This document shows, piece by piece, positions 3,297-46,081 of a DNA stretch of 64,000 nucleotides. Source of the DNA: Pseudomonas wuhanensis (GTDB lineage: Bacteria > Pseudomonadota > Gammaproteobacteria > Pseudomonadales > Pseudomonadaceae); assembly GCF_030687395.1 (NCBI RefSeq), contig NZ_CP117430.1, positions 3,100,001 to 3,164,000 of the forward strand. Direction: 5' to 3'. The position numbers and the translations under genes are program-made. The number at the start of each line of letters is the position of its first letter. Position 1 is the stretch's first letter. The notes below the pieces were generated by a model, which ran no database searches, was not told the origin of the DNA, and saw nothing but the letters and a program-made list of their open reading frames with translations.

Positions 3297-3386
3297 TGTG
3301 GGAGCGGGCTTGCTCGCGAAGGCGGCGTGTCAGTCAACATCAATGTTGAATGTGACGGCCCTTTCGCGAGCAAGCCCGCTCCCACA
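3297..3386. repeat. REP doublet (REPIN), type 1
   Basis: Two inverted 23-bp REP sequences (TGTGGGAGCGGGCTTGCTCG and its complement) enclose about 44 bp whose core AACATCAATGTT is itself palindromic. It lies just downstream of the RND permease stop. Confidence 0.9.
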
Positions 3387-29413: not shown

Positions 29414-29488
29414 TCCTCGCGCCCGAACGCTGCGTCCTGGTAACAGGCGCAGCGCTTGCAAACGGGCGCCTCAAGACAGGTGACTGGC

Positions 29489-30214
29489 GTGAATTCCTTC
29501 CTGAATCTGATCGGGGTCGATCTTTCGGCCCTGCAAGGCTATGGCCCCTTGTTGCTGCATGGCACCTGGGTCACCCTCAAATTGTCGGCGCTGTCACTGC
29601 TGGTGAGCATGGCGCTGGGGCTGCTCGGCGCGGCGGCCAAACTGTCGCCGTTGAAGCTGTTGAACTTGCCTGCCACTTTCTACACGACGCTGATTCGCGG
29701 CGTGCCGGACCTGGTGCTGATGCTGCTGATTTTCTACAGCCTGCAAGGCTGGCTGAGCAGCCTGACCGAGGCCATGGGTTGGCCTTACATGGAAATCGAT
29801 CCGTTTGTAGCCGGTATTGTCACCCTCGGCTTTATCTACGGCGCGTATTTCACCGAGACCTTTCGCGGGGCGATCCTCAGCGTGCCAAGCGGCCAGCAGG
29901 AAGCCGCCGCGTGCTTTGGTTTGAGCCGCTGGCAGCGTTTTCGCTTCGTGGTGTTCCCGCAGATGATGCGGTTCGCCTTGCCGAGCCTGGGCAACAACTG
30001 GCTGGTGCTGCTCAAGGCCACGGCGCTGGTGTCGATCATCGGGTTGTCAGATTTGGTCAAAGTCGCTCAGGAAGCCGGAAAAAGCACTTTCAACATGCTT
30101 GATTTCCTGCTGCTGGCAGGGGCGCTGTATCTGTTGATCACCAGCGCGTCGACCTACGTATTGCGTGTGCTTGAACGACGTTATAACCAGGGCGTGCGGG
30201 GGATGGCGCGATGA
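29489..30214 (+). CDS. Basic amino acid ABC transporter permease (HisQ-like)
   Basis: About 241 residues, five membrane helices, with the permease EAA loop (GQQEAAACFGLSRWQRFRFVVFPQMMR) that contacts the ATPase. The start is probably GTG 29489, preceded by AGGTGA; a TTG further up (29456) is also possible. The stop overlaps the ATG of the partner permease by four bases. Confidence 0.9.
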   Translation: MNSFLNLIGVDLSALQGYGPLLLHGTWVTLKLSALSLLVSMALGLLGAAAKLSPLKLLNLPATFYTTLIRGVPDLVLMLLIFYSLQGWLSSLTEAMGWPYMEIDPFVAGIVTLGFIYGAYFTETFRGAILSVPSGQQEAAACFGLSRWQRFRFVVFPQMMRFALPSLGNNWLVLLKATALVSIIGLSDLVKVAQEAGKSTFNMLDFLLLAGALYLLITSASTYVLRVLERRYNQGVRGMAR

Positions 30215-30921
30215 TCGAGTTGATTGCCGAATACTGGCAACCCTTTCTGTTCAGCGACGGCTATAGCCTCACTGGATTGGCGATGACCTTGTGGCTGTTG
30301 GTGGCAAGCATCGTGATGGGTTTCTTCCTCTCGCTGCCGCTGGCAATCCTTCGAACCTCACGCTGGGGCCTGCTGCGCTGGCCGGTTCAGCTGTTTACTT
30401 ATGTGTTTCGTGGCACGCCGCTGTATATCCAGTTGCTGATTTGCTACAGCGGAATCTACGGCATCGCCGTGGTCCGCTCGCAACCACTGCTTGAAGCGTT
30501 CTTTCGCGATGCGATGAATTGCACCTTGCTCGCCTTCACGCTCAACACCTGCGCCTACACCGTGGAAATCTTCGCCGGGGCGATTCGCAGCATTCCTTAC
30601 GGTGAAATCGAGGCGGCCCATGCTTACGGCTTGAGCGGCTGGCGCCTGTACCTGCGGCTGATCCTGCCTTCGGCGTTGCGCCGGGCGCTGCCGTATTACA
30701 GCAACGAAGTGATCCTGATGTTGCATGCCACGTCGGTGGCGTTCACCGCGACCATCCCCGACATTCTCAAAGTCGCCCGGGACGCCAATGCCGCGACCTT
30801 CATGACCTTTCAGGCCTTCGGCATTGCCGGCCTGCTGTACCTCGCACTGTCGTTCGGGCTGGTCGGCGCGTTCCGCCTGGCAGAAAAGCGTTGGTTGAGC
30901 TTCCTCGGGCCGGCGCACTAA
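30211..30921 (+). CDS. Basic amino acid ABC transporter permease (HisM-like)
   Basis: A 236-residue second permease with five hydrophobic helices and an EAA loop (YGEIEAAHAYGLSGWRLYLRLILPSAL). Start and upstream stop overlap (ATGA), so the two permeases are translationally coupled, as expected for a heterodimeric membrane pore. Confidence 0.92.
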   Translation: MIELIAEYWQPFLFSDGYSLTGLAMTLWLLVASIVMGFFLSLPLAILRTSRWGLLRWPVQLFTYVFRGTPLYIQLLICYSGIYGIAVVRSQPLLEAFFRDAMNCTLLAFTLNTCAYTVEIFAGAIRSIPYGEIEAAHAYGLSGWRLYLRLILPSALRRALPYYSNEVILMLHATSVAFTATIPDILKVARDANAATFMTFQAFGIAGLLYLALSFGLVGAFRLAEKRWLSFLGPAH

Positions 30922-30977
30922 TTCCTCTTTTCATCCAGAGCAGCGTCGCAGCAGGCGCTGTTGCAGGAGACTTATGC

Positions 30978-31739
30978 ATGTACAAACTCACGGTTGAAAA
31001 TCTGTACAAACGTTTTGGTGACAATGAAGTGCTCAAAGGGGTCTCGTTGAACGCACGGGCCGGCGATGTAGTGAGCATGATCGGTGCCAGCGGTTCGGGT
31101 AAAAGCACCATGCTGCGCTGCATCAATTTTCTGGAGCGGGCGGACGAGGGCGCCATCGAACTGGACGGTGAGCGCGTCATCACTCGCCCGGGCGCTGGCG
31201 GCATGCGAGTCGCCAACCCGGCGCAGTTGCAGCGTTTGCGCACACGCCTGGCGATGGTGTTCCAGCATTTCAATCTGTGGAGCCATCTGACCGTACTGGA
31301 AAACATCATACTGGCACCGTGTCGGGTACTGGGTGTCAGCCGCAAGGCCGCTGAAGACAGCGCGCGGGCGTATCTGGACAAGGTCGGTTTGCCGCAACGG
31401 GTGGCCGATCAATACCCGGCGTTTCTGTCCGGCGGGCAACAACAGCGCGTGGCGATTGCCCGGGCGTTGGCCGTGGAACCGGAGATTCTGTTGTTCGACG
31501 AGCCGACCTCGGCGCTCGACCCGGAACTGGTGGGCGAGGTGCTGAAGGTGATTCAGGCGCTGGCCGAAGAAGGCCGGACCATGTTGATGGTGACCCACGA
31601 AATGGGCTTTGCCCGGCAGGTGTCCAGCCAGGTGTTGTTCTTGCATCAGGGGCGGGTCGAGGAGCAAGGTGACGCAACCATCCTCGACCAGCCAAAGAGT
31701 GAACGTTTACAGCAATTCCTATCGGGTCGTTTGAAGTGA
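30978..31739 (+). CDS. Basic amino acid ABC transporter ATPase (HisP-like)
   Basis: A 253-residue ABC ATPase with Walker A GASGSGKST, Q-loop VFQHFNLW, signature LSGGQQQR, Walker [14 protein letters not shown] and the switch His in VTHEMGFA. The start ATG 30978 has CAGGAGA eight bases upstream. It energises import through the two permeases upstream. Confidence 0.94.
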   Translation: MYKLTVENLYKRFGDNEVLKGVSLNARAGDVVSMIGASGSGKSTMLRCINFLERADEGAIELDGERVITRPGAGGMRVANPAQLQRLRTRLAMVFQHFNLWSHLTVLENIILAPCRVLGVSRKAAEDSARAYLDKVGLPQRVADQYPAFLSGGQQQRVAIARALAVEPEILLFDEPTSALDPELVGEVLKVIQALAEEGRTMLMVTHEMGFARQVSSQVLFLHQGRVEEQGDATILDQPKSERLQQFLSGRLK

Positions 31740-31751
31740 GGCAAGACGTAC

Positions 31752-32231
31752 ATGGCGGATATCCGCGATATGTCGATTGTGCTTGATCGTATCGATCAGG
31801 CCATCATCGAAGTGCTGCGCCACGAAGGGCGCATCACTTATCAAAAGCTGTCCGAGCGCGTGCACCTGACGCCCAGGCCGTGCCTGGAACGGGTGCGCAA
31901 ACTCGAACAGCTCGGGGTTATCCGTGGCTACGGCGCGATTCTCGATGAAAAAAAACTGACACCGGGGCTGTCGCTGCTGGTGTTGGTGGCGTTGTCGAAC
32001 CAGAGTGGGCGGTCGGCGCAAAAGGCTTTTGAGGCCAAGGTCCGTGGTTGTCCGCAGGTGCTGGAATGTCGCTTGATCAGCGGCGCGTTCGACTACAGCC
32101 TGCGCATGCGTTGCCGGGACATGGAGCATTACCGGGTGCTGACCGAAGTCTGGTTTGATGACCCGGAATTGCACATTGATAAGCTGGTCAGCCATCCGGA
32201 ACTGGCGATGGTCAAGACCACGATGGAGTAA
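31752..32231 (+). CDS. Lrp/AsnC-family transcriptional regulator
   Basis: A 159-residue protein. The N-terminal helix-turn-helix (LDRIDQAIIEVLRHEGRITYQKLSERVHLTPRPCLERV split over residues ~11-50) is followed by the beta-alpha RAM ligand domain. It is 12 bp after the ATPase gene in the same direction. Relatives sense amino acids, so it probably controls this transporter and catabolic operon in response to arginine, citrulline or ornithine. Confidence 0.9.
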   Translation: MADIRDMSIVLDRIDQAIIEVLRHEGRITYQKLSERVHLTPRPCLERVRKLEQLGVIRGYGAILDEKKLTPGLSLLVLVALSNQSGRSAQKAFEAKVRGCPQVLECRLISGAFDYSLRMRCRDMEHYRVLTEVWFDDPELHIDKLVSHPELAMVKTTME

Positions 32232-32248
32232 TGAGCACCGCAATCCCC

Positions 32249-32276
32249 TGTGGGAGCGAGCAAGCCCGCTCCCACA
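32249..32276. repeat. Minimal REP hairpin
   Basis: Two REP heads (TGTGGGAGCG and CGCTCCCACA) are fused around only a few bases, giving a 28-bp hairpin 18 bp after the Lrp-type gene. It may be a collapsed doublet. It could attenuate transcription into the next two genes. Confidence 0.75.
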
Positions 32277-32451
32277 GTGGTTTTGTAGTGTGTTCAGATG
32301 CCGGGATTGACGATTCCCGAGCCTCGCCGAATCGGCTGAATGGAACAAAATCTTCAGCCATTTCCATCATCCCCAAAGCCCTTAACAACCGGGTTTTTCC
32401 ATCGCCGAAACAGACAATGAGTGCCTCTCAACCCTCATTGAATCTGTGCCC

Positions 32452-33402
32452 ATGCAAACCACCAATACCGTTTTGATGATTCGCCCGACACGTTTCTCGT
32501 TCAATCAGGACACGGCGGCGAACAACCGTTTCCAGCGCCCGGCCAGTGTGTCCGAGGACGTGCAGCTCAAGGCCCTGCAAGAGTTCGACGGCTACGTCGC
32601 CGCGCTGCGCAGCCACGGTGTCGAAGTGCTGGTGCATAACGACCTCGAAGCCCCGCACACCCCCGATTCGATCTTTCCCAACAACTGGTGGAGCAGCCAC
32701 CCCGACGGCACGTTGGTGCTGTACCCGATGCAGGGCCACAACCGGCGTCTGGAGCGCGATAAGGGTGTGCTCGACTGGCTGCGGGACGAATACCGGGTCG
32801 AGCAGTTGCTGGATCTTTCCAGCCTGGAACAGCAGGAAGTGTTCCTCGAAGGCACTGGCAGCATGGTGCTGGATCGACAGCAGCGGATTTGTTACGCCGG
32901 CTATTCCACGCGTACCCACGTTCGGGCGCTGGATCAACTGGTCGACCATTTGGGTTACGAGCTGTGCGCCTTCAATGCGGTGGACCGCCAAGGCGTGGCG
33001 ATTTATCACACCAACGTGATGATGAGTGTCGGCACGCGGCTGGCCATTGCCTGCCTGGCGTCTGTCGCTCACCCAGCTGAACGCCAAGCCCTGCGTTCAC
33101 GGCTGGAAGACAGCGGTAAAAAGGTCATTGCCCTGGACTGGGCACAACTGGAGTCGTTCGCCGGCAACATGCTGGAAGTCCACACCACAGCGGGGGAACC
33201 CTTGCTGGTGATGTCTCGCACGGCCTGGCAATCGCTGGATGCCGATCAGCGTCGTTTGATCGAAACCCACACTACGCCGCTGCCGGTGAACATCGACACC
33301 ATCGAACGCATCGGTGGCGGCAGCGCTCGCTGCATGTTGGCCGAAGTCTATTTATCTAAACGGCTGCCTGAACATCAGTCTGCCCAGGAGCAAGTGCGAT
33401 GA
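32452..33402 (+). CDS. ctlX: CtlX-like amidinohydrolase (arginine deiminase-related)
   Basis: A 316-residue guanidino-group-modifying-fold protein. It has MIRPTRFSFN at the N-terminus, SIFPNNWWSSHPDGTLVLYPM near residue 75, an IYHTNVMM segment with the catalytic His, and the nucleophilic Cys in GGGSARCMLAEVYL near the C-terminus. CtlX-type proteins are linked to citrulline use; they differ from true arginine deiminase in length. The start is ATG 32452 (a GTG two codons upstream also fits). Its stop overlaps the AstA-like gene by four bases, so the pair acts together. Confidence 0.82.
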   Translation: MQTTNTVLMIRPTRFSFNQDTAANNRFQRPASVSEDVQLKALQEFDGYVAALRSHGVEVLVHNDLEAPHTPDSIFPNNWWSSHPDGTLVLYPMQGHNRRLERDKGVLDWLRDEYRVEQLLDLSSLEQQEVFLEGTGSMVLDRQQRICYAGYSTRTHVRALDQLVDHLGYELCAFNAVDRQGVAIYHTNVMMSVGTRLAIACLASVAHPAERQALRSRLEDSGKKVIALDWAQLESFAGNMLEVHTTAGEPLLVMSRTAWQSLDADQRRLIETHTTPLPVNIDTIERIGGGSARCMLAEVYLSKRLPEHQSAQEQVR

Positions 33403-34433
33403 TCGTCCGTCCTGCAACACCGGCAGATTTGCCGGCACTGTTGGCCCTGGCCCATAGCGCCGGGACCGGTTTGACCACCTTGCCGGCCGATGCGGCGCGT
33501 TTGAGCCAGCGTCTGGAATGGGCGGCGAAAACCTTTGCAGGCGAGGCCGAGCGCGGCGATGCCGACTACCTGTTTGTGCTGGAGAACGACCATCAAGAAG
33601 CGGTCGGCATCTGTGCCTTGGCGGGCGCTGTCGGTTTGCGCGAGCCCTGGTACAACTATCGACTGGGCCTATTTGTTGCCGCGTCGAAAAACCTTGGGAT
33701 CAATCAGCAACTGCCGACGTTGTTCCTCGGCAATGACATGACCGGCCACTCGGAACTGTGTTCGCTGTTTTTGCATGCCGATCACCGCAGCGGTCTGAAT
33801 GGCCGCTTGTTGTCGAAGGCGCGGTTCCTGTTTCTGGCGGAATTTCGTCAGCACTTCGGTGACAAGGTGATTGCAGAGATGCGCGGCTATTCGGACGAAG
33901 AGGGTGTTTCACCGTTCTGGGAAGGTCTGGGGCGGCACTTTTTCAAGATGAATTTCGCCGACGCCGACTACCTGACGGGCCTTGGCAACAAAACCTTTAT
34001 CGCCGAACTGATGCCCAAGTTTCCGTTGCCGACCTGCCTGTTGCCTGAGGCAGCGCGAGCGGTTATCGGTCGCGTGCACCCCAACACCGAACCGGCACTG
34101 GGCATGCTCAAGGCGGAAGGCTTCGAGCATCGGGACTACATCGATATCTTTGATGGCGGGCCGCTGATCGAATGCGCCACCGGCGACATTCGTGCGGTGC
34201 GCGACAGTCAGGTGCTGCAACTGAGCATTGGTACGCCAGGAGAGCAGGCGGCGACGTACCTGATTCACAACCGCCAGTTTGCCGAGTGCCGGATTACGGC
34301 GGCACCGGCGCGAGTCGCCGCCGGTACTTTGATCGTCGATGCGCAAACGGCGAAAACATTGGGGTTGAGTGCCGGGGCGTCGGTGCGCGCGGTGAGCCTG
34401 GCGGTGCCGGTGCAGCAGCAATCTGCTGCCTAG
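33399..34433 (+). CDS. Arginine/ornithine N-succinyltransferase-like protein (AstA family)
   Basis: A 344-residue AstA-family acyltransferase with MIVRPATPADLPALLALA, YRLGLFVAASKNLGI, ELCSLFLHADHRSGLNGRLLSKARFLFLAEF, EMRGYSDEEGVSPFWEG and the RVHPNTEPAL segment. AstA/AruF enzymes succinylate arginine (and ornithine) at the alpha-amino group in the AST pathway. The rest of that pathway is not here, so this is a stand-alone paralogue. Coupled to the CtlX-like gene, it may succinylate ornithine made from citrulline or arginine. Confidence 0.85.
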   Translation: MIVRPATPADLPALLALAHSAGTGLTTLPADAARLSQRLEWAAKTFAGEAERGDADYLFVLENDHQEAVGICALAGAVGLREPWYNYRLGLFVAASKNLGINQQLPTLFLGNDMTGHSELCSLFLHADHRSGLNGRLLSKARFLFLAEFRQHFGDKVIAEMRGYSDEEGVSPFWEGLGRHFFKMNFADADYLTGLGNKTFIAELMPKFPLPTCLLPEAARAVIGRVHPNTEPALGMLKAEGFEHRDYIDIFDGGPLIECATGDIRAVRDSQVLQLSIGTPGEQAATYLIHNRQFAECRITAAPARVAAGTLIVDAQTAKTLGLSAGASVRAVSLAVPVQQQSAA

Positions 34434-35446: not shown

Positions 35447-36625
35447 TTATTTTTGCGGTATCGCCACCCGCCGACCGCTCATGAAACAGAGAAAACCGCC
35501 CATTGCCGTCAACGCACTCAGGGCATAGAACATGGTGGGCGCGGGCGTGTGCAACAGCAGATAGCCACAGATCACCGGGCTCAGCGCACCGCCGAGGGCC
35601 GCGAGGTTTTGCGCGCCGTAGTAGCTCCCGCGCAGTTCTTCCGGGGCCAGGGTGTCGACGAACAGGAATTCGGCCGGGTAAATGATCATTTCGCCGAGAG
35701 TGAAAATGAACATCGCTACGCACCAGCTCACCAGGCTATCGGCCAGACTGAAACCGATCAACCCGAGGATGAACAGGCTGGTGCCACCGGCAATCCAGTA
35801 GCGCAGGTGTTCGCGCTGGAGAAACCGGCCGATCTGGTATTGCAGCAGGATCACGCTGATGGCGTTGCAGGCGAGCAGGGCGGCCATGGTTTCCAGGGCA
35901 CGTTTGGTGTCTTGGGTGACCAGCAGGTATTGCGACAGGTACAGGGTGAAACGACCGTGCACCACGGCGCTGAGCAGGCAGCCGCAGGTGAACATGATCA
36001 GCGTGCGGTCGTTCTTCAGGGTGATCAGGGTTCTGAGGAAACTCTGGGGCTGGCCGATGGCGGGTGTCTGGACCGGGTCTTTGGGAATCCCGCTCATCAG
36101 GAAAATACTGAAGAATGCGATGCCGCCGGCGATCAGGAACGGCGCAATCGGATACACGCCGGCGATCACCACGCCGAGCATGGGGCCGGTGGCGTAGCCG
36201 ATATTGGTCAGCGTGTAGCGCAGCGAAAAAGCCTTGGCGCGTTGGCCCACAGGCAGGTTTTCGCTGAGGATCGCCTTGGACCCGATCAGGAACAGCGCCG
36301 AGGCGGTTTCGGTGATCACCAGGGTGGCGGTGGTCAGGTAGAGGTTTTCGGCGAAGGTCAGCAGCAAGAAACCGATGGCACTGGAGAGCATGGCGAGAAT
36401 CAGCAGCCGACGCTTTTCGAGGCGGTCGATGATGTAACCGCCGTAAAGGGCGAGCAGGGTGGCGATGAACACCGCGATGCCCAGCAACAGGCCGACGTCC
36501 TGTTGGTTGAGGCCGAGTTTGTTGCTCAGAAACAGGGTGAGCAATGGGCTGGTAATGGCGCGGCTGACGACGATGGTCAGCGAAACGATCATCAAGCGGC
36601 GAATAACGAGGGAGTAAGTAGCCAC
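35447..36625 (-). CDS. Major facilitator superfamily transporter
   Basis: A 392-residue protein with about 12 hydrophobic helices. The loop 2-3 MFS signature is recognisable (GGYIIDRLEKRRLLI), and there is an RAKAFSLRYTLTNIGYATGP segment as in MdtH-like drug/proton antiporters. The start is a GTG at 36625 (reading MATYSLVIRR); the frame extends further into a repeat and should not be used. The substrate is unknown; multidrug export is the default guess. Confidence 0.85.
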   Translation of the reverse strand: MATYSLVIRRLMIVSLTIVVSRAITSPLLTLFLSNKLGLNQQDVGLLLGIAVFIATLLALYGGYIIDRLEKRRLLILAMLSSAIGFLLLTFAENLYLTTATLVITETASALFLIGSKAILSENLPVGQRAKAFSLRYTLTNIGYATGPMLGVVIAGVYPIAPFLIAGGIAFFSIFLMSGIPKDPVQTPAIGQPQSFLRTLITLKNDRTLIMFTCGCLLSAVVHGRFTLYLSQYLLVTQDTKRALETMAALLACNAISVILLQYQIGRFLQREHLRYWIAGGTSLFILGLIGFSLADSLVSWCVAMFIFTLGEMIIYPAEFLFVDTLAPEELRGSYYGAQNLAALGGALSPVICGYLLLHTPAPTMFYALSALTAMGGFLCFMSGRRVAIPQK

Positions 36626-36655
36626 GGTGGGGCAAATGTCCTTATTCAGTTTGTT

Positions 36656-36763
36656 GATCGTTCCCCACGCTCTGCGTGGGAATGCAGCCAGGGACGCTCC
36701 GCGTCCCAAGAGCGGACGCAGAGCGTCCGGTGAGACATTCCCACGCAGAGCGTGGGAACGATC
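36656..36763. repeat. Long double-hairpin repeat, copy C
   Basis: A 108-bp element. Its right-hand GATC supplies two bases of the TGA stop codon of the MmgE/PrpD gene (stop at 36762-36764), so the repeat and the coding region overlap by 2 bp. Confidence 0.87.
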
Positions 36764-38159
36764 ACGGTGTGTTCAGCCATTGCTCCAGTGATTCGACAGA
36801 ACTCAAACTTTCCAGACGCCACAACTGTTCCAGCAATTGACTGGCCTGCTGTCGTGGCATCACCCGCCCAGCCAGGCTGAAAAACTTCTCCTCCAGCGCT
36901 TCATCACTCAGCGGATTCCCCGGCGCACCCAACGGCACCTCAACACACAAACTCGCGTGCCGACCGTCCACGGTCTGCAGGCTGACCACAGGCTCGCCAT
37001 CCTCCGACAGTAGCGGGTCGACTTCAAGGCGAATGCGCGACATCCAGTGAGCGATCCGCGGATGGTGGCGCTGTTCATCGTCGTAGGCTACCAACCGGCA
37101 ATGCCCATGGACCAGCCGGGCCGCGAGGGCATAGCGCAGGCTCATTTGTGCCGCTGGCAGGCTATTGATGTCCTGACCGCCACACATGTCCTGAAGGAAT
37201 CCGCACAGCGAAACCTGAACGCTTTCGACCTGATCCACGCTGACCTGCAATTGATCGAGCAACAGACCCAATGCATCGATCGCCGAATGCGTCCCCCGGC
37301 ATGCCGCGTAGGGCTTGATCGAGCAGCGGGCGAGCTTCCACACATGGCCCAGTTCGGCATCCAGCGCCTCGGGCACGGCGGTATCCGCCGCGAGGGTCTT
37401 GAGAAAACCGCCCCAGACATCATCGAACAGCTTTGTCGGCCCGGTGATGCCTTGTTGAGCAAACCGCGCCGCCAGCAGTCCACCTTCGGCGGCCCGGCCG
37501 CTATGGAGTTTTTTGCTTTGCGAGCCGTCATGGATGAAGGCCCAAAGACCACCGCTGAAGCTGCCGGCGATGCCCAGCGCCGCCAGGGTTTGCTGCGCAT
37601 CCAGCCCCAGAATCCGCGCACTGGCCGCTGCTGCGCCAAACACCCCGCACGTCGCGGTGGAGTGCCAACCGGCGCCGTTGTGGGCCGAGTAACTGCCGCA
37701 GGCTTCGAGTACCCGACGGCCGATTTCGTAGCCGATCACTACAGCGGTGATCAACTCGCGGCCATTTATCGGTCTTTCAGACATCGACACAGCGGCCATC
37801 ACCGCCGGCAGCACCACCGCGCCGGAGTGGTCGCAGCCGCCGGTGTCGTCCAGCTCCAGGGCATGCGCGGCGATGCCGTTGAGCATGGCGGCCTGCGCTG
37901 CGCCGACTCGCTGATCGGTGCCCCAGACCAACGTGCTGCCGGCTTCACCCTCGAAAACCTGACGCGCCTGCTTCGCCACATCGCTGCCAGCCCCGGCCAG
38001 GGTTACGCCGAAAGTGTCGAGGATGTGTCGCCTGGCTTGCGCTACCAATGCGGGTGGTAAATCTTCGAAGCGAGTCTCCACACAAAACTGCGCCAACCGC
38101 TCCATCCGCATGACCCCATCGTAGGCGCTACCGAAGGCTGCGATCTCTTGATCTTTCAT
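36762..38159 (-). CDS. MmgE/PrpD-family protein (possible epimerase or dehydratase)
   Basis: About 465 residues. The family is clear from GVTLAGAGSD, NGIAAHALELDDT, SGAVVLPAVMA, HSTATCGVFGAAAA, HSGRAAEGGLLAA, KPYAACRGTHSAIDA and the C-terminal ligand part. Family members include 2-methylcitrate dehydratase and iminodisuccinate epimerase. The ATG at 38159 overlaps the upstream stop (ATGA). The first ~15 codons, however, look like a dispersed genomic repeat rather than family sequence, and the original start may be 38111 or 38105 (MRMERLAQ or MERLAQ). It is the last gene of the lyase-transporter-hydrolase cluster that begins at 44288. Substrate unknown. Confidence 0.85.
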   Translation of the reverse strand: MKDQEIAAFGSAYDGVMRMERLAQFCVETRFEDLPPALVAQARRHILDTFGVTLAGAGSDVAKQARQVFEGEAGSTLVWGTDQRVGAAQAAMLNGIAAHALELDDTGGCDHSGAVVLPAVMAAVSMSERPINGRELITAVVIGYEIGRRVLEACGSYSAHNGAGWHSTATCGVFGAAAASARILGLDAQQTLAALGIAGSFSGGLWAFIHDGSQSKKLHSGRAAEGGLLAARFAQQGITGPTKLFDDVWGGFLKTLAADTAVPEALDAELGHVWKLARCSIKPYAACRGTHSAIDALGLLLDQLQVSVDQVESVQVSLCGFLQDMCGGQDINSLPAAQMSLRYALAARLVHGHCRLVAYDDEQRHHPRIAHWMSRIRLEVDPLLSEDGEPVVSLQTVDGRHASLCVEVPLGAPGNPLSDEALEEKFFSLAGRVMPRQQASQLLEQLWRLESLSSVESLEQWLNTP

Positions 38160-39043
38160 ACCCCGTAATCCCGATAATGACGTTCGTACACCGCCGCCGG
38201 GTGATCCTCGGTCACGGGCGCTGCCGACTCGGCCCACCATTGAGCGACTTCGGCACCAGTTGCGATCCATACATCGTCGTGCTGTTGAATGCTTTGCAGC
38301 AATTCGCGCAACACACCGATCCGCCCGGGCGTGGCGATGATCTCCGGGTGCAGCCGCAGCACGTAACACAGCCCGAATCGATGAAACCCGGCGAAGTCCA
38401 TTTGCAGGTTGCCTAAGGTATGGCTGTAGGAGGCGATGCGCGATTGCGCCGGTGGCACCGCCGGGCTGAGGTTGAAGGCGAAGTAGGGTTCGTCTTCCAG
38501 TTCGTAGTGCAACGGCAGCTCGATCACGTCTGGCGCCGTCGGGTGAGCAAAGGGCAAATCATCGCCGCGCCATGACGAGTCCCAGCGGATGCCATGCTCC
38601 CTTAACGCCTCGATGAAGCCCGGCGCACCGTTGCCGGCGGGGATGCGAAAGCCTGTCGGACGCTGACCGGTCAGCGCGCTCAAGGCCGCGCAACCTTTTG
38701 CGACCTCGGCACTTTGCTCGGCCAGCGTCAGGTTGTCGTAGTTTTGATGGCGATACCCGGCGCAGGCGATTTCATGCCCGCCGGCCTGGATCGCCCGGAC
38801 GTGCTGCGGGTTTTCCTCGGCGACGATGCCGGGGATGCACCAACTGCTGGAAACCCCCAGTTCTTCGAACAAACCGAGCAAACGCTCGACACCGCGTTGG
38901 GTACCGTAGCGCCACACCGATAAGGTCTTGTCGCGTCCGGCGACTTCCGGCGCCTGGGTGAGGATGCCGTGAATGTCGTTGTAATCGACGGTCAGCACCA
39001 CGGCACAGCGGTAGCCGTTGGGCCAGACAGTGGAATCAGCCAT
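38156..39043 (-). CDS. Polysaccharide-deacetylase-fold hydrolase (PuuE-like), second of a pair
   Basis: A 295-residue CE4/NodB-fold protein. It has CAVVLTVDYND with the metal-binding Asp, a GGHEIACAGYRHQNYDNL segment with the metal His residues, and FRIPAGNGAP and LRLHPEIIATPGR near the end. The order and length match the allantoinase-like PuuE branch, which hydrolyses C-N bonds in small cyclic ureides and amides rather than polysaccharides. It overlaps its neighbour by 8 bp and the MmgE/PrpD gene by 4 bp, so all three are translated together. Confidence 0.85.
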   Translation of the reverse strand: MADSTVWPNGYRCAVVLTVDYNDIHGILTQAPEVAGRDKTLSVWRYGTQRGVERLLGLFEELGVSSSWCIPGIVAEENPQHVRAIQAGGHEIACAGYRHQNYDNLTLAEQSAEVAKGCAALSALTGQRPTGFRIPAGNGAPGFIEALREHGIRWDSSWRGDDLPFAHPTAPDVIELPLHYELEDEPYFAFNLSPAVPPAQSRIASYSHTLGNLQMDFAGFHRFGLCYVLRLHPEIIATPGRIGVLRELLQSIQQHDDVWIATGAEVAQWWAESAAPVTEDHPAAVYERHYRDYGV

Positions 39044-39884
39044 GGTGATGCTCCTTCAGCCACCAGTGGGCGACGTCGCGGCAGGTGGCGAACCAGACGT
39101 CATCGCGCTGGCGCATGTGTTCGAAGAGTTTTTCCAGGAGCAGGATGCGCCCCGGTTTGCCGGTGATTTTGGGGTGGAACAGGGTGGTCAGGCACAACCC
39201 TTCATCCATGGCGCCGTCGAACTCGCGGCACCAGTTGTCGAGGGTCAGCGCGTAGCTGGCGGTGCGGTCGAGTCCCGAGGGAAAGTCTGGCGCGCGGGTG
39301 TAGGCGAGGGAGGCGTAGTCGTCCATTTCCCAACGACCGGGGATTTCCACCAGCGGCGTATCGAAGCCCGGCACGCTGACCAGATACGGCCGATCATCGC
39401 CGCGCATGCTGCTGGAATAGGTCACGCCTGCTTCCACCAGCATGGCCGGCGTTTCGGCCCGCCAGTCACCGGACGGGGTGCGAAAACCTTCGGCGCGGAT
39501 GTGCAGGTGTTTCCAGAACACCTCGCGGGATTTGTGCATCACGTCCTTCTGCTGATCCAGCGTCAGGGCGTAAAAGGATTCGTGTTTGTAGCCGTGGTAC
39601 GCCACTTCATGTCCGCGCTCGACAATCGCCTGGCACTGTTTCGGCCAGTTTTCCACGACCCAGGCCGGGACGAAAAATGTCGTCGGGATCCGGAACTCAT
39701 CCAGCACATCGAGAATCCGCGGCAGCGCCCGATAGGGGCCGTAACCACCGAAACCAAAGTACTCGGGCTTGCGCCAGATCGAGCCGTTGAGCATGGCATC
39801 GCCGGTGGGACCATCGAGGTCGAAGGCCAGGGCGAGGCAGGCTGCGTGCTGATTGGGCCAGGTGGGTTGTAGCGAGGAGGACAT
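39036..39884 (-). CDS. Polysaccharide-deacetylase-fold hydrolase, first of a pair
   Basis: A 282-residue paralogue of the next gene. It has LALAFDLDGPTGD (metal Asp), the GHEVAYHGYKHESFYAL segment with paired His, FRTPSGDWRAETPAM, and TLFHPKITGKPGRI. The start is ATG 39884 with GGAG seven bases upstream; a TTG four codons earlier is less likely. Two tandem diverged copies suggest either a heteromer or two steps on related substrates. Upstream, two REP doublets separate it from the binding-protein gene of the same cluster. Confidence 0.85.
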   Translation of the reverse strand: MSSSLQPTWPNQHAACLALAFDLDGPTGDAMLNGSIWRKPEYFGFGGYGPYRALPRILDVLDEFRIPTTFFVPAWVVENWPKQCQAIVERGHEVAYHGYKHESFYALTLDQQKDVMHKSREVFWKHLHIRAEGFRTPSGDWRAETPAMLVEAGVTYSSSMRGDDRPYLVSVPGFDTPLVEIPGRWEMDDYASLAYTRAPDFPSGLDRTASYALTLDNWCREFDGAMDEGLCLTTLFHPKITGKPGRILLLEKLFEHMRQRDDVWFATCRDVAHWWLKEHHHG

Positions 39885-39921
39885 GTGGTGCTCCAACTAT
39901 TTATAAGTAAACGCCAGACCC

Positions 39922-40145
39922 TGTGGGAGCGGGCTTGCCCGCGAAGGGGCCGGCACATTCAACAGTTATGTCGCCTGACAGACCGCCATCGCGGGCAAGC
40001 CCGCTCCCACAGGTTTTTCGGTGGGCCACAAAATTGTGATCGACCCAGAGTTAGTGTGGGAGCGGGCTTGCTCGCGAGGAGGCCGGCACATTCAACATCT
40101 ATGTCGCCTGTCAAATCGCTTTCGCGGGCAAGCCTCGCTCCTACG
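39922..40145. repeat. Two tandem REP doublets, type 1
   Basis: Doublets at 39922-40011 and 40055-40145 share nearly the same inner sequence (GGCCGGCACATTCAAC... then ATGTCGCCTG), so one arose by duplication of the other. The last unit is mutated (GCCTCGCTCCTACG). It fills the gap between two genes of the cluster. Confidence 0.88.
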
Positions 40146-40154
40146 GGGCTAGCA

Positions 40155-40979
40155 TTATTTCCCGGCGTTAATGGTCACCGTCTTGATCGCGCCCAGTTCC
40201 AGGTCCCACTTCTTCAAGATCGCCTGGTAGCTGCCGTCATCGACCATGCTCTGCATCGCCACTTTCACCGCTTCGCTCAGCTCAGGCTTTTTCTTGCTCA
40301 CGCCCAACCCGGTGAACTGCTTGGAAATCGGCAGGCCCACGGTTTTGTACATGTCCTTTTCCTGGGTCTTGAGGTACGGCAGGGTTTCGCTGCCTTGCAT
40401 GGCCGCGTCGATACGGCTTTGACGCAGTTGCGCGCGGGCGTCGGCCGAGCCTTCGGTGCCGATCACGTTGATCGCAGGCTTGCCGGCGGCTTCGCAGTTG
40501 GCCTTGCTCCACTCGGCGATTTCCGCCGGAAAGGTCGTACGTCGGCTGGTACCGACTTTCTTGCCACACAGGTCGATGATCTCGTTGGTGTCCTTGTTTT
40601 TCTGCAAGGTGTAGAACTGCGGACCGCTGGTGAAGTAGTCGACGAAGGTCACACTGGCCTGGCGCTCGGCGGTGTCGGTCATGCCCGACATCACCATGTC
40701 CACGCGGTCGGTGGTCAGCGCATTGATCATTTGCTCGAAGCCGGTTTCCTGCCATTTGATCTTCACGCCCAGCCGCTCGGCCAGGGCGTTGCCCAGGTCA
40801 ACGTCGAGCCCGGTGAGGGTGTTGGTGGCCGGGTCCTTGAAATCCATCGGCGGGTAGTTCGGCATGATCGCTACCACGACCTCGCCCTTGTCCTTGATGC
40901 TGGCCGGTAGCTCGGCGGCCCAGGTGAAACTGGAAGCCATAACACCTGCGATTACTGCTGGAATAACGAAGTTCTTCAT
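40155..40979 (-). CDS. Polar amino acid ABC transporter, periplasmic binding protein
   Basis: A 274-residue family-3 binding protein with a signal peptide (KNFVIPAVIAGVMASSFTW, cleavage near WA/AE). The fold segments are VVVAIMPNYPPMDFKDP, GLDVDLGNALAERLG, TDRVDMVMSGMTDT and KVGTSRRTT. It belongs to the polar amino acid group, but the ligand pocket cannot be read by eye. It is encoded between the ATPase and the hydrolase genes, so its ligand is probably the substrate of that catabolic cluster. Confidence 0.9.
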   Translation of the reverse strand: MKNFVIPAVIAGVMASSFTWAAELPASIKDKGEVVVAIMPNYPPMDFKDPATNTLTGLDVDLGNALAERLGVKIKWQETGFEQMINALTTDRVDMVMSGMTDTAERQASVTFVDYFTSGPQFYTLQKNKDTNEIIDLCGKKVGTSRRTTFPAEIAEWSKANCEAAGKPAINVIGTEGSADARAQLRQSRIDAAMQGSETLPYLKTQEKDMYKTVGLPISKQFTGLGVSKKKPELSEAVKVAMQSMVDDGSYQAILKKWDLELGAIKTVTINAGK

Positions 40980-41032
40980 GGTCGTTCTCTTATGAGTGTT
41001 GTTACGCAGCTCTTGATTTCTGAGACTGGCGC

Positions 41033-41797
41033 TTAGGTTCGAACGGCAGAAATGAAGCTTTGGGTGCGTGGGTTTTGCGGACTTATTAGTATTTCTTCGG
41101 GGCTTCCAGCCTCCACGATCTGTCCTTCGTCCATGAACACCATGCGGTTGGAAACCTCGCGAGCGAAGCCCAGTTCATGAGTGACGACGATCATGGTCAT
41201 GCCGGTTTGCGCCAGATCGCGCATCACCGACAGCACCTCACCGACCAGTTCCGGGTCGAGTGCCGAAGTGGGTTCATCGAACAGCATCAGCTTGGGTCGC
41301 ATGGCCAACGCGCGGGCAATCGCCACCCGTTGTTGCTGACCGCCCGACAGTTCGATCGGGTAGCTGTTGCGCTTGTCGGCCAGGCCGACGCGAGCGAGCA
41401 ATTCCAAGGCTTCTTCGTGCGCTTCTTTGGGCGAACGCTTGAGCACCTGGCACGGCCCTTCGATGATGTTTTGCAGCACAGTCATGTGCGGGAACAGGTT
41501 GAAGCGCTGGAACACCATGCCGGTGGCCAGGCGCTGACGGGCGATCTGCGACTCGTTGAGTTCGTGCAGTTTGTTGCCGGCGATGCGGTAACCCACCAGT
41601 TCGCCGTCGACCCACAGGCCGCCCTTGTCGATTTTTTCCAGCTGATTGACGCAGCGCAGCAGGGTGCTTTTGCCGGAGCCGGACGGGCCGATGATGCACA
41701 ACACCTCGCCTTGCTCGACCTCGATATTGATGTCCTTGAGCGCGTGGAAATGGTCGTAGTACTTGTTCAGGCTCACGGCCTTGACGATGCTTCTCAT
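41033..41797 (-). CDS. Polar amino acid ABC transporter ATPase
   Basis: About 254 residues. Walker [11 protein letters not shown]-loop VFQRFNLF, signature LSGGQQQR, Walker [14 protein letters not shown], switch His in VTHELGFA. The start at 41797 has GAGGAG upstream; the open frame extends further but without support. It sits between permease and binding-protein genes of the same transporter. Confidence 0.94.
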
Positions 41798-41807
41798 GTG
41801 GGGCTCC

Positions 41808-42686
41808 TCAAGAACGCTTGCCGGCGCCGCGAGCGAAACGACGCTCCAGACGGCTTTGACCAAAGGACAGAACAGTGACGGTGGCCAGGTACCAGATACC
41901 GGCGACGATCAGCAGCTCCATCACGCGGGCGTTGGCGTAGTAAATGTTCTGGGCGTTGTAGAGCAGTTCCGAGTACTGGATGACGCTCGCCAGGGAGGTC
42001 ATTTTCACCATGCCGATGAACTCGTTACCCACCGGTGGAATGATGATCCGCATGGCCTGGGGCAGGATGATCCGGCGCAGGGCTTGCAGGCGCGGCATGC
42101 CGATCGACTTGGCGGCTTCGTACTGTCCGGTGTCGACCGAGAGCAGGCCGGCACGCACCACTTCGGCGGTGTAGGCGCCCTGGTTGATGCTCAAGCCGAG
42201 GAGGGCGGCCACGAAGGGCGTCATCAGGCTCACGGTGTCCATTTCGAACACACCGGGGATGCCGATGGTGGGGAAAATCAGCGCCAGGTTGAACCACAGC
42301 AGCAGCTGCAGAATCAGCGGCGTGCCGCGAAACAGCCAGGTGTAGGTCAGCGCCACATAGCGCAGGATCGGGTTGGCCGACATGCGCATGATCGCGGTGA
42401 TCACCCCGAACACGATGCCCAGCGCCATCGCCAGCACCGCCATGACGATGGTGTTGAGCAGGCCCCACATGATTGCCTGAGAAGTGAGGAACTGGCCGAT
42501 GTACGACCATTCGATCTTGCCTTCGGCGAAGGCCCGCACCAGGCCGACAATCGCAATCACGATTACCGTGGCGAAGAAAATCCGCCCGTAATAGCGCCGT
42601 GGCACATGCTGGTACTGGGTGATATCGAACTGGTTTTCCGCCAGTTTGCGCTCCGCCTGGAGTCGTTCTGCCTGAGTCTGGCTCAT
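41808..42686 (-). CDS. Polar amino acid ABC transporter permease
   Basis: A 292-residue permease, longer than usual because of a ~60-residue charged cytoplasmic N-terminus ([15 protein letters not shown]) before the first helix. The EAA loop is [26 protein letters not shown]. The start at 42686 has GGAG upstream. There is only one permease gene in this transporter, so it probably works as a homodimer. Confidence 0.91.
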
Positions 42687-42753
42687 GTTGTTTCTCCGTA
42701 CGCCGCGCTCAATCAAGACGGCGCGTGTTGTCTTTCATTTCCAACACAATCCC

Positions 42754-42843
42754 TGTGGGAGCGGGCTTGCCCGCGATGGCGGCATTACATTCAACATCAA
42801 TGTTGGCTGACACTCCGCTATCGCGGGCAAGCCCGCTCCCACA
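42754..42843. repeat. REP doublet, type 1
   Basis: Inverted REP pair between the lyase and permease genes. Its inner sequence (ACATTCAACATCAATGTTG) is shared with the copy at 3297. Confidence 0.9.
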
Positions 42844-42860
42844 GGTTTGGTGGCGTTGAT

Positions 42861-44288
42861 TCAGAGACGGAAACCCTGATAGTTCTCGGTCCATTGTTGC
42901 TGGGCGGCGAGGGCGGTTTTCAGTCGACCGATCTGCTCGCGCACTTGTTGCGGCGCGGTACCGCCCCAGCCACTGCGGGCGGCGATGGCGGCTTCGAGGG
43001 TCAGGCTGTCGCGCACTTCAGGCTTGAGACGTGGATCGATCTCAGCCAGCAGCGCCGGGGACGCTTCCCACAACTCGATGTCATGTTTCTCGCAGGCCTG
43101 GACCAATGCGCCGGTGATTTCATGAGCTTCCTTGAACGGCACACCGCGCACCGCCAGCCAGTCGGCCACTTCGGTGGCGAGGGTGAAGCCCAGCGGTGCC
43201 TGACGACGCAATTCTTCAACGTTGACCTTCATGGTCGCGACCATCCCGGCCATGGCCGGCAACACCAGCAGCAGGGTGTCGACACTGTCGAGCACGCCAT
43301 TTTTGTCTTCGCTGAGGTCGCGGTTGTACGACAGCGGCAGGGATTTGAGCGTCGACAACAAACCAGTCAGGTTACCGATCAAGCGGCCAGCCTTGCCCCG
43401 GGCCAGTTCGGCGATGTCCGGGTTTTTCTTCTGCGGCATGATCGAACTGCCGGTGGCATAGGCATCGTCCAGTGCGACCCAGCGAAATTGCCGCGACGAC
43501 CACAGACAGAATTCTTCGGCAAGGCGGGAAATGTTGATCCCGAGCATGCTGGCGATAAACAGGAACTCGGCGACGTGATCGCGGCTGGCCACGGCGTCGA
43601 TGGAGTTTTCGCAAACACCGCTGTAGCCCATTTCCTTGGCCGACTGCTGCGGCAAGCGAGCAATCGCAGAACCAGCCATGGCTGCGGCACCGAGTGGCGA
43701 CAGCGAAGTGCGCACGTCCCAGTCCACCAAGCGTTGCACGTCACGCAGCATCGATTGGGCGTGGGCCAACAAGTGGTGCGCGAAAACGATCGGCTGCGCC
43801 TGTTGCAAGTGAGTGAAGCCCGGGCAGATGCTCTCGATGTGTTGCTCGGCTTGATCCACCAGCGCTTGTTGCAAGGCCAGCACTTCGACGGCCAGGGTGC
43901 GCACGTGATCACGCAGGAACAGCCGCAGGTCATTGGCGGTCTGGTCGTTGCGCGAACGGCCGGCGCGCAGCTTGCCGCCCAGTGCGCCGAGGCGTTCGGT
44001 CAGCAGGCGCTCGATGAAGGTGTGGACGTCTTCGTCGTCCAGCGTCGGCGCGATGCTGCCGGCACGGAAGTCATCACCGATACGCTCCAGGGCGTCGAGC
44101 ATGGTCTGGGTTTCCTGCTCGCTCAACAGCCCTGCGCGCTGCAATTCCCGGGCATGCGCCTTCGAGCCGGCGAGGTCGTACGGGGTGAGGCGAAAGTAAC
44201 GCTCGGGGCAACGGGACAAGGCCGCCAGGGCTTCGGACGGGCCGCTCTTGAAGCGGGCACCCCAGAGACGGTCGGTGGTTTGAGACAT
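42861..44288 (-). CDS. Argininosuccinate-lyase-superfamily C-N lyase
   Basis: A 475-residue aspartase/fumarase-superfamily lyase. It has the argininosuccinate lyase blocks LWGARF, DEDVHTFIERLL, GKLRAGRSRNDQTA, GFTHLQQAQP with the catalytic His, and the flexible signature loop GSSIMPQKKNPDIAELARGK with the catalytic Ser. Known members cleave argininosuccinate to arginine and fumarate; relatives cleave ethylenediamine-disuccinate and iminodisuccinate. The biosynthetic argH normally lies elsewhere in pseudomonads, and this one is tied to a transporter, hydrolases and a LysR regulator, so a catabolic role is more likely. The start at 44288 is just after the AT-rich divergent promoter region. Confidence 0.85.
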   Translation of the reverse strand: MSQTTDRLWGARFKSGPSEALAALSRCPERYFRLTPYDLAGSKAHARELQRAGLLSEQETQTMLDALERIGDDFRAGSIAPTLDDEDVHTFIERLLTERLGALGGKLRAGRSRNDQTANDLRLFLRDHVRTLAVEVLALQQALVDQAEQHIESICPGFTHLQQAQPIVFAHHLLAHAQSMLRDVQRLVDWDVRTSLSPLGAAAMAGSAIARLPQQSAKEMGYSGVCENSIDAVASRDHVAEFLFIASMLGINISRLAEEFCLWSSRQFRWVALDDAYATGSSIMPQKKNPDIAELARGKAGRLIGNLTGLLSTLKSLPLSYNRDLSEDKNGVLDSVDTLLLVLPAMAGMVATMKVNVEELRRQAPLGFTLATEVADWLAVRGVPFKEAHEITGALVQACEKHDIELWEASPALLAEIDPRLKPEVRDSLTLEAAIAARSGWGGTAPQQVREQIGRLKTALAAQQQWTENYQGFRL

Positions 44289-44594
44289 TGTTGTTTTCCT
44301 CGTCGTAAAGCGAATTGAAATCGGTATGCCGAGCCCGGAACACCCGCCGAAAATCATTCGGGCGTGGTTCGGCTCAATCAATATTCAAGGGCAGGGGAAA
44401 AGCGCAGTTGCTAAATGGCGAGAACTGATCGAAGTGTCAGTTTTTAATGGTTCGAAATCAGTGTGTTGGCACTGATCTGCGGGATTTATTAACGGTTGCC
44501 AAGCCTTGTTTTCTGTGTTCATTATTATTAGCCAGCACTGTTTTTGTTGTTGGACACAGATTGTTGAATAGGGCGCCAGAGGTAAATAAGCATT
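44289..44594. promoter_or_regulatory. Divergent promoter region with two LysR-type dyads
   Basis: The 306-bp gap between the lyase and its LysR regulator is AT-richer than its surroundings. Two perfect inverted repeats lie near its centre: AACTGA-N8-TCAGTT at 44423-44442 and ATCAGTG-N6-CACTGAT at 44457-44476. They share the CTGA/TCAG core and are 34 bp apart centre to centre, as a LysR tetramer would need. No promoter hexamers can be assigned with confidence. Confidence 0.5.
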
Positions 44595-45560
44595 ATGGAA
44601 ACCCCACTTTCCAATTCCGGAAACCCGCCGCCAAAAACGGTACATCGGGCACCGCTGGCCCTCAGCGGTCTGGACTTCAAACTGCTCAAAGTATTCAAGG
44701 CTGTGGTCGAGGCTGGCGGCTTCAGTGCAGCGCAGAATGAGCTGAATGTGGGCCTGGCGGCCATCAGCAAACAGATCTCCGACCTCGAGATTCGCATCGG
44801 CATGCGCCTGTGTACCCGAGGGCGGGAAGGTTTTCACCTGACCGAAGAAGGCCGTCTGGTGTACCAGGCGTCAATCGATTTGTTTGCCTCCGTCGATAAC
44901 TTTCGTGACCGGCTTAGTTCAGCTCAGAACGAACTTATTGGCGACCTTGGAGTGGGTGTTATTGATAATACGATCACGGACGCTAATTCGCCGTTAGTTG
45001 CGGCGCTGAGAAAAATAAACGAAGAGTCACCAAAAGTAAGGTTTCAACTTCAGGCGTCTCAGTTAGATGAGGTAGAAAGAGGCGTAGTCGAAGGGCGGTT
45101 AGTGGCCGGGATCGTGCCGGTTTATCAGAAAAGAGAAGAGTTCGATTACTTCCCGCTTTATGAAGAACGCTCGTACGTGTATTGCGCCGTTGGCCATCCA
45201 CTGTTCGCGATGCCGGAGGCGGACATGGGCAGCAACGTGCTGCTGGATTTCGAGTGCATCAACCACCGTTACGCGATCCATCGGGACAAACTGAATTTTG
45301 CCCGCTACGACAGCTTTTCCGCGTCGGCGACTCAAGTGGAAGCCGTGGCGCTGCTGGTCAAGACCGGCCGTTTTGTGGGTTTTCTACCCGAGCATTACGC
45401 GGCAACCCTGGTGGCTCAGGGGCAGTTTCGAGCGGTGCGTCCGGACCTGATCAACATCGTCACGCCGTTCAATCTGATCCTGCGCCACAACACCGTGCGC
45501 AGTCCGCTGGTGAAGGCATTTGCCCAGGCGCTGGGTGTGGATCTGAAGGCGTCGGTTTGA
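44595..45560 (+). CDS. LysR-family transcriptional regulator
   Basis: A 321-residue protein with a ~25-residue extension before the LysR helix-turn-helix (LKVFKAVVEAGGFSAAQNELN, then LAAISKQISDLE). A two-lobed co-inducer domain follows from about residue 115 (DLGVGVIDNT, VEGRLVAGIVPV). Genes of this type are usually divergent from the operon they activate; here that is the lyase, transporter and hydrolase cluster. The co-inducer would be the substrate of that cluster. Confidence 0.9.
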   Translation: METPLSNSGNPPPKTVHRAPLALSGLDFKLLKVFKAVVEAGGFSAAQNELNVGLAAISKQISDLEIRIGMRLCTRGREGFHLTEEGRLVYQASIDLFASVDNFRDRLSSAQNELIGDLGVGVIDNTITDANSPLVAALRKINEESPKVRFQLQASQLDEVERGVVEGRLVAGIVPVYQKREEFDYFPLYEERSYVYCAVGHPLFAMPEADMGSNVLLDFECINHRYAIHRDKLNFARYDSFSASATQVEAVALLVKTGRFVGFLPEHYAATLVAQGQFRAVRPDLINIVTPFNLILRHNTVRSPLVKAFAQALGVDLKASV

Positions 45561-45562
45561 GG

Positions 45563-46081
45563 CTAACGCAGCTTCAAGCGCATCGCGCACCGTCGTTCCC
45601 CAGGCAGACCGTGGTTGATTTCGTTGTTCAACACCGTCCTTAAACGCGAGCCTATTTCGGCCGGGCTCAATGTTTCAAAGTCGAGTTTGCGATAAAACGG
45701 TTCATTCCAGGGCAAGTCGCGGAACGTGGTCAAAGTCAGACCGTCGAGTTTCCGTTTGCGTGCGTGTTCGAGTGCCGTTAACAGCAACTTACGGCCAGCG
45801 CCCTGGCCCTGAAACTGTTGGCTGACGGACAGTTCCTCAATATGCAGTTCCCTGTCGACTTCAACGGCCCTGAGAAACCCCATAAGTTCACCGTCGGCCG
45901 ATTGCGCCACCCAAACCTGCTCGTTCTCAATTGCCATTTGATGGTGTTCGGCATCGGCTACCGCAGCGTCGGCGAGCCAGGCCAATGAAGGGTCGCAGCG
46001 AAACAGCGCAGCCGCCGAACGCTCGATGGCGGGGAGGGCGGTGGCGTCGGCAGATTGGGCACGGCGTACAGTGAAATTCAT
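45563..46081 (-). CDS. GNAT-family N-acetyltransferase
   Basis: A 172-residue GNAT protein. It begins FTVRRAQSADATALPAIERSA, and motif A, which binds acetyl-CoA pyrophosphate, is QFQGQGAGRKLL near residue 95. The segment GLTLTTFRDLPWNEPFYRKLDF near the C-terminus is common in a GNAT branch acting on small amines or amino acids. The substrate is unknown. It converges on the LysR gene with a 2-bp gap. Confidence 0.87.
   Translation of the reverse strand: MNFTVRRAQSADATALPAIERSAAALFRCDPSLAWLADAAVADAEHHQMAIENEQVWVAQSADGELMGFLRAVEVDRELHIEELSVSQQFQGQGAGRKLLLTALEHARKRKLDGLTLTTFRDLPWNEPFYRKLDFETLSPAEIGSRLRTVLNNEINHGLPGERRCAMRLKLR

Follow-up and report, generated by a model that had tools for sequence, protein, structure and literature searches.

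A conserved Pseudomonas gene cluster built on an ArgH-derived lyase, and its proposed role in the catabolism of a fumarate adduct

We analysed a stretch of 64,000 nucleotides from the genome of Pseudomonas wuhanensis (contig NZ_CP117430.1, positions 3,100,001 to 3,164,000; hereafter, the window), in which a lyase related to argininosuccinate lyase (ArgH) is encoded together with an ATP-binding cassette (ABC) importer, an MmgE/PrpD-family protein, two NodB-fold proteins (NodB1 and NodB2) and a divergent LysR regulator (Table 1). A prediction made earlier from the sequence alone (the original prediction) had joined these eight genes into a cluster for the import and breakdown of an N-succinyl or aminodicarboxylate compound, and family searches confirmed every one of the eight genes and its family. 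Two further genes lie outside the limits given then, one encoding a YdeE-like major facilitator superfamily (MFS) transporter and the other a GNAT N-acetyltransferase. Judged from its sequence, the cluster lyase is a repurposed ArgH. We propose that the cluster is a LysR-controlled catabolic operon for an adduct of fumarate with some amine that is not plain arginine, a reading to which we give a probability of about one half.

Table 1 Features of the cluster and its flanks, in window coordinates.
Feature	Position	Strand	Evidence
MFS transporter (YdeE-like)	35447..36709	-	Pfam MFS_1; best NCBIfam match YdeE, 219 bits, below the cut-off of 582
MmgE/PrpD-family protein, proposed epimerase/isomerase, accessory	36762..38159	-	Pfam PF03972/PF19305
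NodB1, NodB fold with degenerate metal/catalytic site, proposed pseudoenzyme subunit	38156..39043	-	Pfam PF01522
NodB2, NodB-fold amidohydrolase/deacetylase with intact D,D,H,H,H site	39036..39884	-	Pfam PF01522
Inverted repeats of repetitive extragenic palindromic (REP) type between the NodB2 and SBP genes	39885..40154	.	Sequence and fold; GGGAGCGGGCTTGC motif repeated
Periplasmic amino-acid-type solute-binding protein (SBP)	40155..40979	-	Pfam PF00497
ABC transporter ATPase, polar amino acid type	41033..41797	-	Family search
ABC transporter permease, polar amino acid type	41808..42686	-	Family search
ArgH-derived lyase with altered amine half-site, proposed core enzyme	42861..44288	-	TIGR00838, 528 bits; own clade
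Divergent LysR regulator	44595..45560	+	Pfam HTH_1/LysR_substrate
GNAT N-acetyltransferase adjoining LysR, possible associate, variable in Pseudomonas	45563..46081	-	Pfam PF00583

The cluster is a real and conserved block, as had been predicted. We compared two sets of loci with 11 contigs in common: 20 same-genus loci of 20 kb each, and the best 80 of 154 loci with NodB1 relatives from a scan of genome contigs (79 from Pseudomonas and 1 from Erwinia). The order LysR, lyase, permease, ATPase, SBP, NodB2, NodB1 is kept in all 20 same-genus loci; MmgE is found in 14 (truncated in L039) and the MFS gene adjoins the cluster in 17. Among the best 80 of 154, the cluster is complete in 67, that of Pseudomonas fluorescens FW300-N2E3 (L121) included, and MmgE is present in 61, once as a fragment. 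The other 13 comprise 7 loci cut by contig ends, 1 in which LysR falls below the identity filter (L147), 2 with fragmented genes (L118 and L144) and 3 apparent deletions. In these last three, from three Pseudomonas strains (L124, L138 and L148), an apparent internal deletion fuses a LysR remnant to a NodB remnant, and the lyase and importer are gone.

Outside the genus, the block recurs in Erwinia and Burkholderia. Plasmid records carry the set in Caballeronia, Paraburkholderia (in a different order and with two importer sets), Burkholderia pyrrocinia (two) and Burkholderia stagnalis, and single-NodB versions are found on plasmid records of Chelatococcus, Sinorhizobium meliloti, Sinorhizobium medicae and Microvirga. 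In Ensifer, Ochrobactrum, Rhizobium and a further genome (G549) the arrangement is importer–NodB2–NodB1–MmgE–lyase. LysR adjoins the lyase in the annotated records in which its position was inspected. The cluster is rare in broad samples: among the matches listed, a window-type lyase occurs in 2 of 249 phylum-sample genomes (that of the window and one other), followed by a match of 46% identity. A class-wide, alignment-based search (E 1e-40; strict, at most six candidates per genome) returned 1 of 369 genomes, again the window's own. NodB2 searches in three families returned 1 of 151 genomes (the centre genome itself), 0 of 149 and 0 of 150, empty answers that show nothing by themselves. We found no paper on this gene combination in the open-access literature.

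Seven Lyase_1 proteins are encoded in the genome of the window. The cluster lyase resembles ArgH in family (it clears the cut-off of 279.5 bits of the NCBIfam ArgH equivalog), in the signature GSSIMPQKKN and in its 52% identity to the nearest solved ArgH (6iem, which we take to be the Mycobacterium tuberculosis enzyme). It differs from ArgH, however, in its place in the tree and in its setting beside an importer and LysR and, mostly, NodB and MmgE. The cluster lyases form one clade with support of 100/100 (24 of 24 rows in a 54-row tree), and this clade stays separate, at 100/98 (10 of 10 rows), in a second tree that also includes the solved ArgHs 6iem and 2e9f. Here its neighbour is 6iem, at a position for which the program warns that long branches may join falsely. 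The same genome encodes another ArgH-like protein (L004, G000:C1:263511-264893), 43% identical to the cluster lyase, which we take to be the biosynthetic ArgH because it is placed among other ArgHs. The cluster lyase is therefore neither the only ArgH-like protein of its genome nor grouped with the biosynthetic one, and we reject a plain ArgH isozyme on the tree and on the residues described below. The original prediction of a fumarate-type lyase distinct from plain ArgH, served by an importer, holds to this extent. It had also named ethylenediaminedisuccinate (EDDS) and iminodisuccinate lyases as members of the same superfamily, and we reject the cluster lyase as one of these by score. EDDS lyase (PDB 6g3d, labelled argininosuccinate lyase there and presumably active on EDDS) is likewise an ArgH-related lyase of N-succinyl amines, but the window lyase lies on another branch, scoring 206 bits to EDDS lyase and 498 to an ArgH.

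Residues on the fumarate side and those of catalysis (S112, R113, N114, T159, H160, S282, K287 and N289), the catalytic His and Ser included, are identical in 54 of 54 rows, as is K329. On the other side of the active site, Q326 is replaced by S or A in all 24 cluster lyases (Q in 26 of 26 ArgH) and D31 by Y or F in all 24 (D in 26 of 26 ArgH), and S27 is C or A in 14 of the 24; Y321 and K329 are kept. The solved ArgH 6iem has S27, D31 and Q326. We take S27, Y321, Q326 and K329 to contact the arginine part of the substrate in ArgH structures, and D31 to lie on the arginine side too. With the fumarate half-site intact and residues changed on the arginine side, we infer an amine other than arginine. 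Two further replacements, H108R and T109A, were dropped as cluster-specific changes, as 6iem has both. The lyase of the Ensifer, Ochrobactrum, Rhizobium and G549 clusters forms a separate clade within ArgH (100/100) that joins L004 and L182 at 97/93 (95/95 in the tree with 6iem and 2e9f). It shows Y321F, D328S and S27C in four of four sequences, and its fumarate and catalytic residues are kept. As the two clades are separate, the two lyases appear to have entered the same gene set from different parts of the ArgH tree.

The cluster might instead scavenge argininosuccinate, its anhydride or an N-acylated form, with the lyase still yielding arginine and fumarate and with NodB and MmgE handling cyclised or masked argininosuccinate. 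Both lyase types do derive from ArgH, the window lyase counts as ArgH by its NCBIfam score (528 bits, cut-off 279.5), and arginine genes are found close by: those for arginase and ornithine cyclodeaminase adjoin the Paracoccus cluster, and an astA/DDAH/AsnC/arginine-type-SBP block lies near 17–19 of 82 non-repeated loci, the window included. Such a role is nonetheless unlikely given the loss of Q326, D31 and often S27, taken to be arginine-side residues, in the cluster clade, and given an SBP that matches Gln/Arg types weakly (these are its nearest solved proteins, the best at 105 bits).

Which genes form the core can be read from 144 related genomes (lyase at E ≤1e-180, NodB1 at ≥61% identity and MmgE at E ≤1e-90), in which presence is nested. 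The lyase occurs in 30, all in the window's genus. NodB1 occurs in 22, all among these 30 (61 genomes have any NodB1 match at E 1e-20), and MmgE in 15, all among the 22; of the remaining NodB1 genomes, one has a truncated MmgE (G087) and six have none. Five of the eight lyase genomes without NodB1 have LysR–lyase–permease–ATPase–SBP–MFS with no NodB or MmgE in the cluster, and genome-wide searches of these five for relatives of NodB1 (E 1e-20) and of MmgE (E 1e-90) were negative. Nested presence and these five reduced clusters point to the lyase and importer as the core, and to NodB and MmgE as accessory. The MFS gene, which is kept in the same five and adjoins most same-genus clusters, is assigned to the cluster on these grounds. 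An open reading frame (ORF) after the MFS gene is the same in the five NodB-less loci and was not found in the other collected loci; considered as a substitute for NodB, it gave no family match in the copies tested and is taken to be a neighbour.

The two NodB proteins, originally described as overlapping PuuE-like hydrolases, are not equivalent hydrolases by their residues. NodB2 keeps the metal and catalytic residues D22, D24, H97, H101 and H237 in 16 of 16 paired loci. Its partner lacks at least one metal or catalytic residue in all 16, and the lost residues differ by lineage: in the window, N stands for the D24 equivalent and A for the first His of motif 2, in Burkholderia metal or catalytic positions are taken by N, S and C, and the base is lost in five alphaproteobacterial pairs, four of which have also lost the motif-5 His. 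Motif roles in the family are reported in PMC10967932 (papers are cited here by accession). Three of the four single-NodB loci keep all five residues; in the other one (L194) the C-terminal frame is altered. Both proteins have 3RXZ, PuuE and HpPgdA as their closest matches, and a structure model of NodB1 is a NodB barrel (predicted local distance difference test score of 77.8) with 3RXZ as the nearest fold (TM 0.80), alongside 3S6O, 1Z7A and PuuE (3CL6). The cluster differs from these relatives in encoding an adjacent pair, one paralogue intact and the other degenerate. From its residues, NodB1 is probably a conserved non-catalytic (pseudoenzyme) partner; by analogy with PuuE, it may have a metal-free activity. 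The NodB1 and MmgE genes overlap by ATGA, and those of NodB2 and NodB1 by 8 bp, so that the hydrolase–MmgE part looks translationally coupled; the MmgE/PrpD gene starts with the ATG at 38159, and a longer ORF to 38369 is over-extended.

The resemblance of both NodB proteins to 3RXZ, PuuE and HpPgdA is what favours a cyclic ureide or imide pathway, in which NodB2 would be a PuuE-like ring-opening amidohydrolase and the resulting ureido or imino acid would be the substrate of the lyase. For HpPgdA, the authors of PMC3084791 argue for a small substrate. We consider such a pathway highly improbable, as NodB2 keeps a full metal site whereas PuuE is described as non-metal-dependent (PMC10967932), and the cluster occurs without NodB in five genomes. 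Given these five, which are without MmgE as well, opening of a cyclic form by the hydrolases, originally suggested as a possible first step, cannot be obligatory.

The MmgE/PrpD protein had been linked to iminodisuccinate (IDS) epimerase, and this is indeed its closest solved match (134 bits, the next being 125). All 19 of the sequences compared, which come from alpha-, beta- and gammaproteobacteria, carry the motifs ELDD[STA]GGCDHSGAVV, GWHST and K[KR]xHxGR. In each of them, the RGHP stretch of IDS epimerase and bsIRG1 is replaced by a shorter CDHS, with the Arg falling in an alignment insertion, which makes this subfamily related to, but distinct from, IDS epimerase; according to PMC7347537, bsIRG1 shares conserved active-site residues with IDS epimerase. 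IDS epimerase and a C–N lyase in Agrobacterium tumefaciens BY6 combine an MmgE/PrpD protein with a stereoselective lyase (PMC7347537). The cluster has the same logic but differs in CDHS, in a lyase–importer core that can be without MmgE, and in its additional NodB pair, importer and LysR. An epimerase role would fit the dispensability of MmgE.

In a thiol version of such a pathway, S-(2-succino)cysteine-like adducts would be broken down by acetylation, lyase action and deacetylation as at the scm/yxe locus, with the GNAT corresponding to YxeL (presumably a GNAT), NodB to YxeP and MmgE to YxeQ (which we take to be an MmgE/PrpD protein). The division of labour is the same, with a GNAT by LysR in several lineages, an amino-acid ABC importer, a fumarate lyase, a deacetylase fold and an MmgE/PrpD protein. 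All five are present in Chelatococcus, B. pyrrocinia and the window, and the GNAT, NodB and MmgE are inconstant overall. The S-(2-succino)cysteine pathway of the scm/yxe locus with its lyase, 2SL, as described in PMC9706529 (where the synthesis direction of 2SL is reported to run easily), shares with the cluster an amino-acid ABC importer, a fumarate-releasing lyase, an acetyltransferase, a deacetylase and YxeQ; it differs in that the cluster has a NodB fold instead of YxeP, an ArgH-derived lyase and an inconstant GNAT. Several points make the thiol version very unlikely. 2SL is placed no more closely than in lyase class I, cd01334 (PMC9706529), and five clusters are without any NodB. The GNATs are mostly not orthologous between lineages: the window type is found in 31 of 108 loci (28 of 97 after removal of repeated contigs), and other types adjoin LysR in B. 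pyrrocinia, Sinorhizobium, Chelatococcus and Erwinia, which led us to reject the GNAT as a constant member. By analogy, the S-(2-succino)cysteine pathway and the IDS epimerase/lyase pair are the closest published logic to that of the cluster. Near the GNAT and single NodB of Chelatococcus (L153), there is an Asp/Glu racemase-family gene at 5654–6319.

In several lineages a second SBP gene of family-3 type lies beside the cluster (L195, 10516–11373; L155, 16152–17108; L055, 11971–12792; confirmed by Pfam for the last of these), a hint that there may be several ligands. Convergent to the cluster, the window holds genes at 28634–34433 for an SBP, an AsnC regulator, a DDAH-family hydrolase and arginine N-succinyltransferase (AstA). 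Of three loci with a lyase but no importer, NodB or MmgE (L199, L203 and L204), the last two have a 3-hydroxyisobutyrate-dehydrogenase-type gene beside the lyase; in L056 and L147 a gene of this family flanks the full cluster. REP-like repeats lie in the gaps between NodB2 and SBP and between lyase and permease; elements with GGGAGCGGGCTTGC or close variants occur at window positions 3299, 3369, 32259, 40057 and 49663 and in the lyase–permease gap (42687–42860), some of them thus within the operon. The lyase–LysR intergenic region is 306 bp long and its LysR-proximal part is conserved (alignment of 20 chosen from 88). In a tolC mutant of S. meliloti 1021, argH2 (SMb21094) and SMb21095–21097 are down 10- to 21-fold on microarrays and argH2 is down 4.5-fold by PCR with reverse transcription; these argH2 and ABC genes fall together with nitrogen-assimilation genes, and the authors' explanation is a reduced level of NtrC (PMC2912261). 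From the gene order and the single place for the lyase on pSymB, SMb21094–21097 would be our locus L152.

In the fumarate-adduct pathway that we favour, the ABC importer would take up an amino-acid-like adduct (an N-(2-succinyl) amine), and the ArgH-derived lyase would eliminate fumarate from it, with release of an amine that is not plain arginine. Product in excess, or toxic to the cell, would be exported by the YdeE-like MFS protein. For most lineages we propose in addition that a heteromeric amidohydrolase of NodB2 (active) and NodB1 (pseudoenzyme) would remove an acyl group or open a lactam or imide, making masked forms usable, and an MmgE/PrpD epimerase or isomerase would extend use to more stereo- or regio-isomers. 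The operon would be catabolic and probably nitrogen-scavenging. Gene order, lyase phylogeny, the intact fumarate half-site with losses opposite it, the degenerate NodB1 and nested presence are observed; the direction, the substrate class and the roles of NodB, MmgE and MFS are our interpretation. Several points weigh against this proposal. S27 is kept in 10 of the 24 cluster lyases, and the ArgH sample consists of Pseudomonadota and two solved chains, so that a wider one might break the clade. The lyase is retained in three genomes from the genus of the window that have lost or never had importer, NodB and MmgE, and Paracoccus has importer–NodB2–NodB1–MmgE–LysR with no lyase in a 21-kb stretch (its other replicons were not searched). 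With arginine genes nearby in Paracoccus and in the astA block, the amine could be arginine-like. A search for a sigma-54 (NtrC-type) promoter at the lyase gave nothing over chance in the window, and we found no biochemical or genetic evidence for what any cluster member does.

More tentatively, the cluster may be a nitrogen counterpart of succinated-cysteine salvage, for which ArgH would have been remade at least twice to act on a natural N-succinyl amine, together with a new MmgE/PrpD epimerase and a new heteromeric NodB enzyme, one subunit of which is a conserved pseudoenzyme; the substrate would then be some metabolite of soil or plants for which degradation is not known as yet. Public records from Burkholderia, Chelatococcus and Sinorhizobium label the cluster lyase 'argininosuccinate lyase' (argH or argH2), and the evidence presented here indicates that the argH2 class is something else. 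If our proposal is correct, soil and plant-associated bacteria would have a new catabolic route that can be tested, the same enzyme would have been repurposed twice in nature to serve a single gene set, and the NodB proteins would offer a clean model of an enzyme–pseudoenzyme pair.

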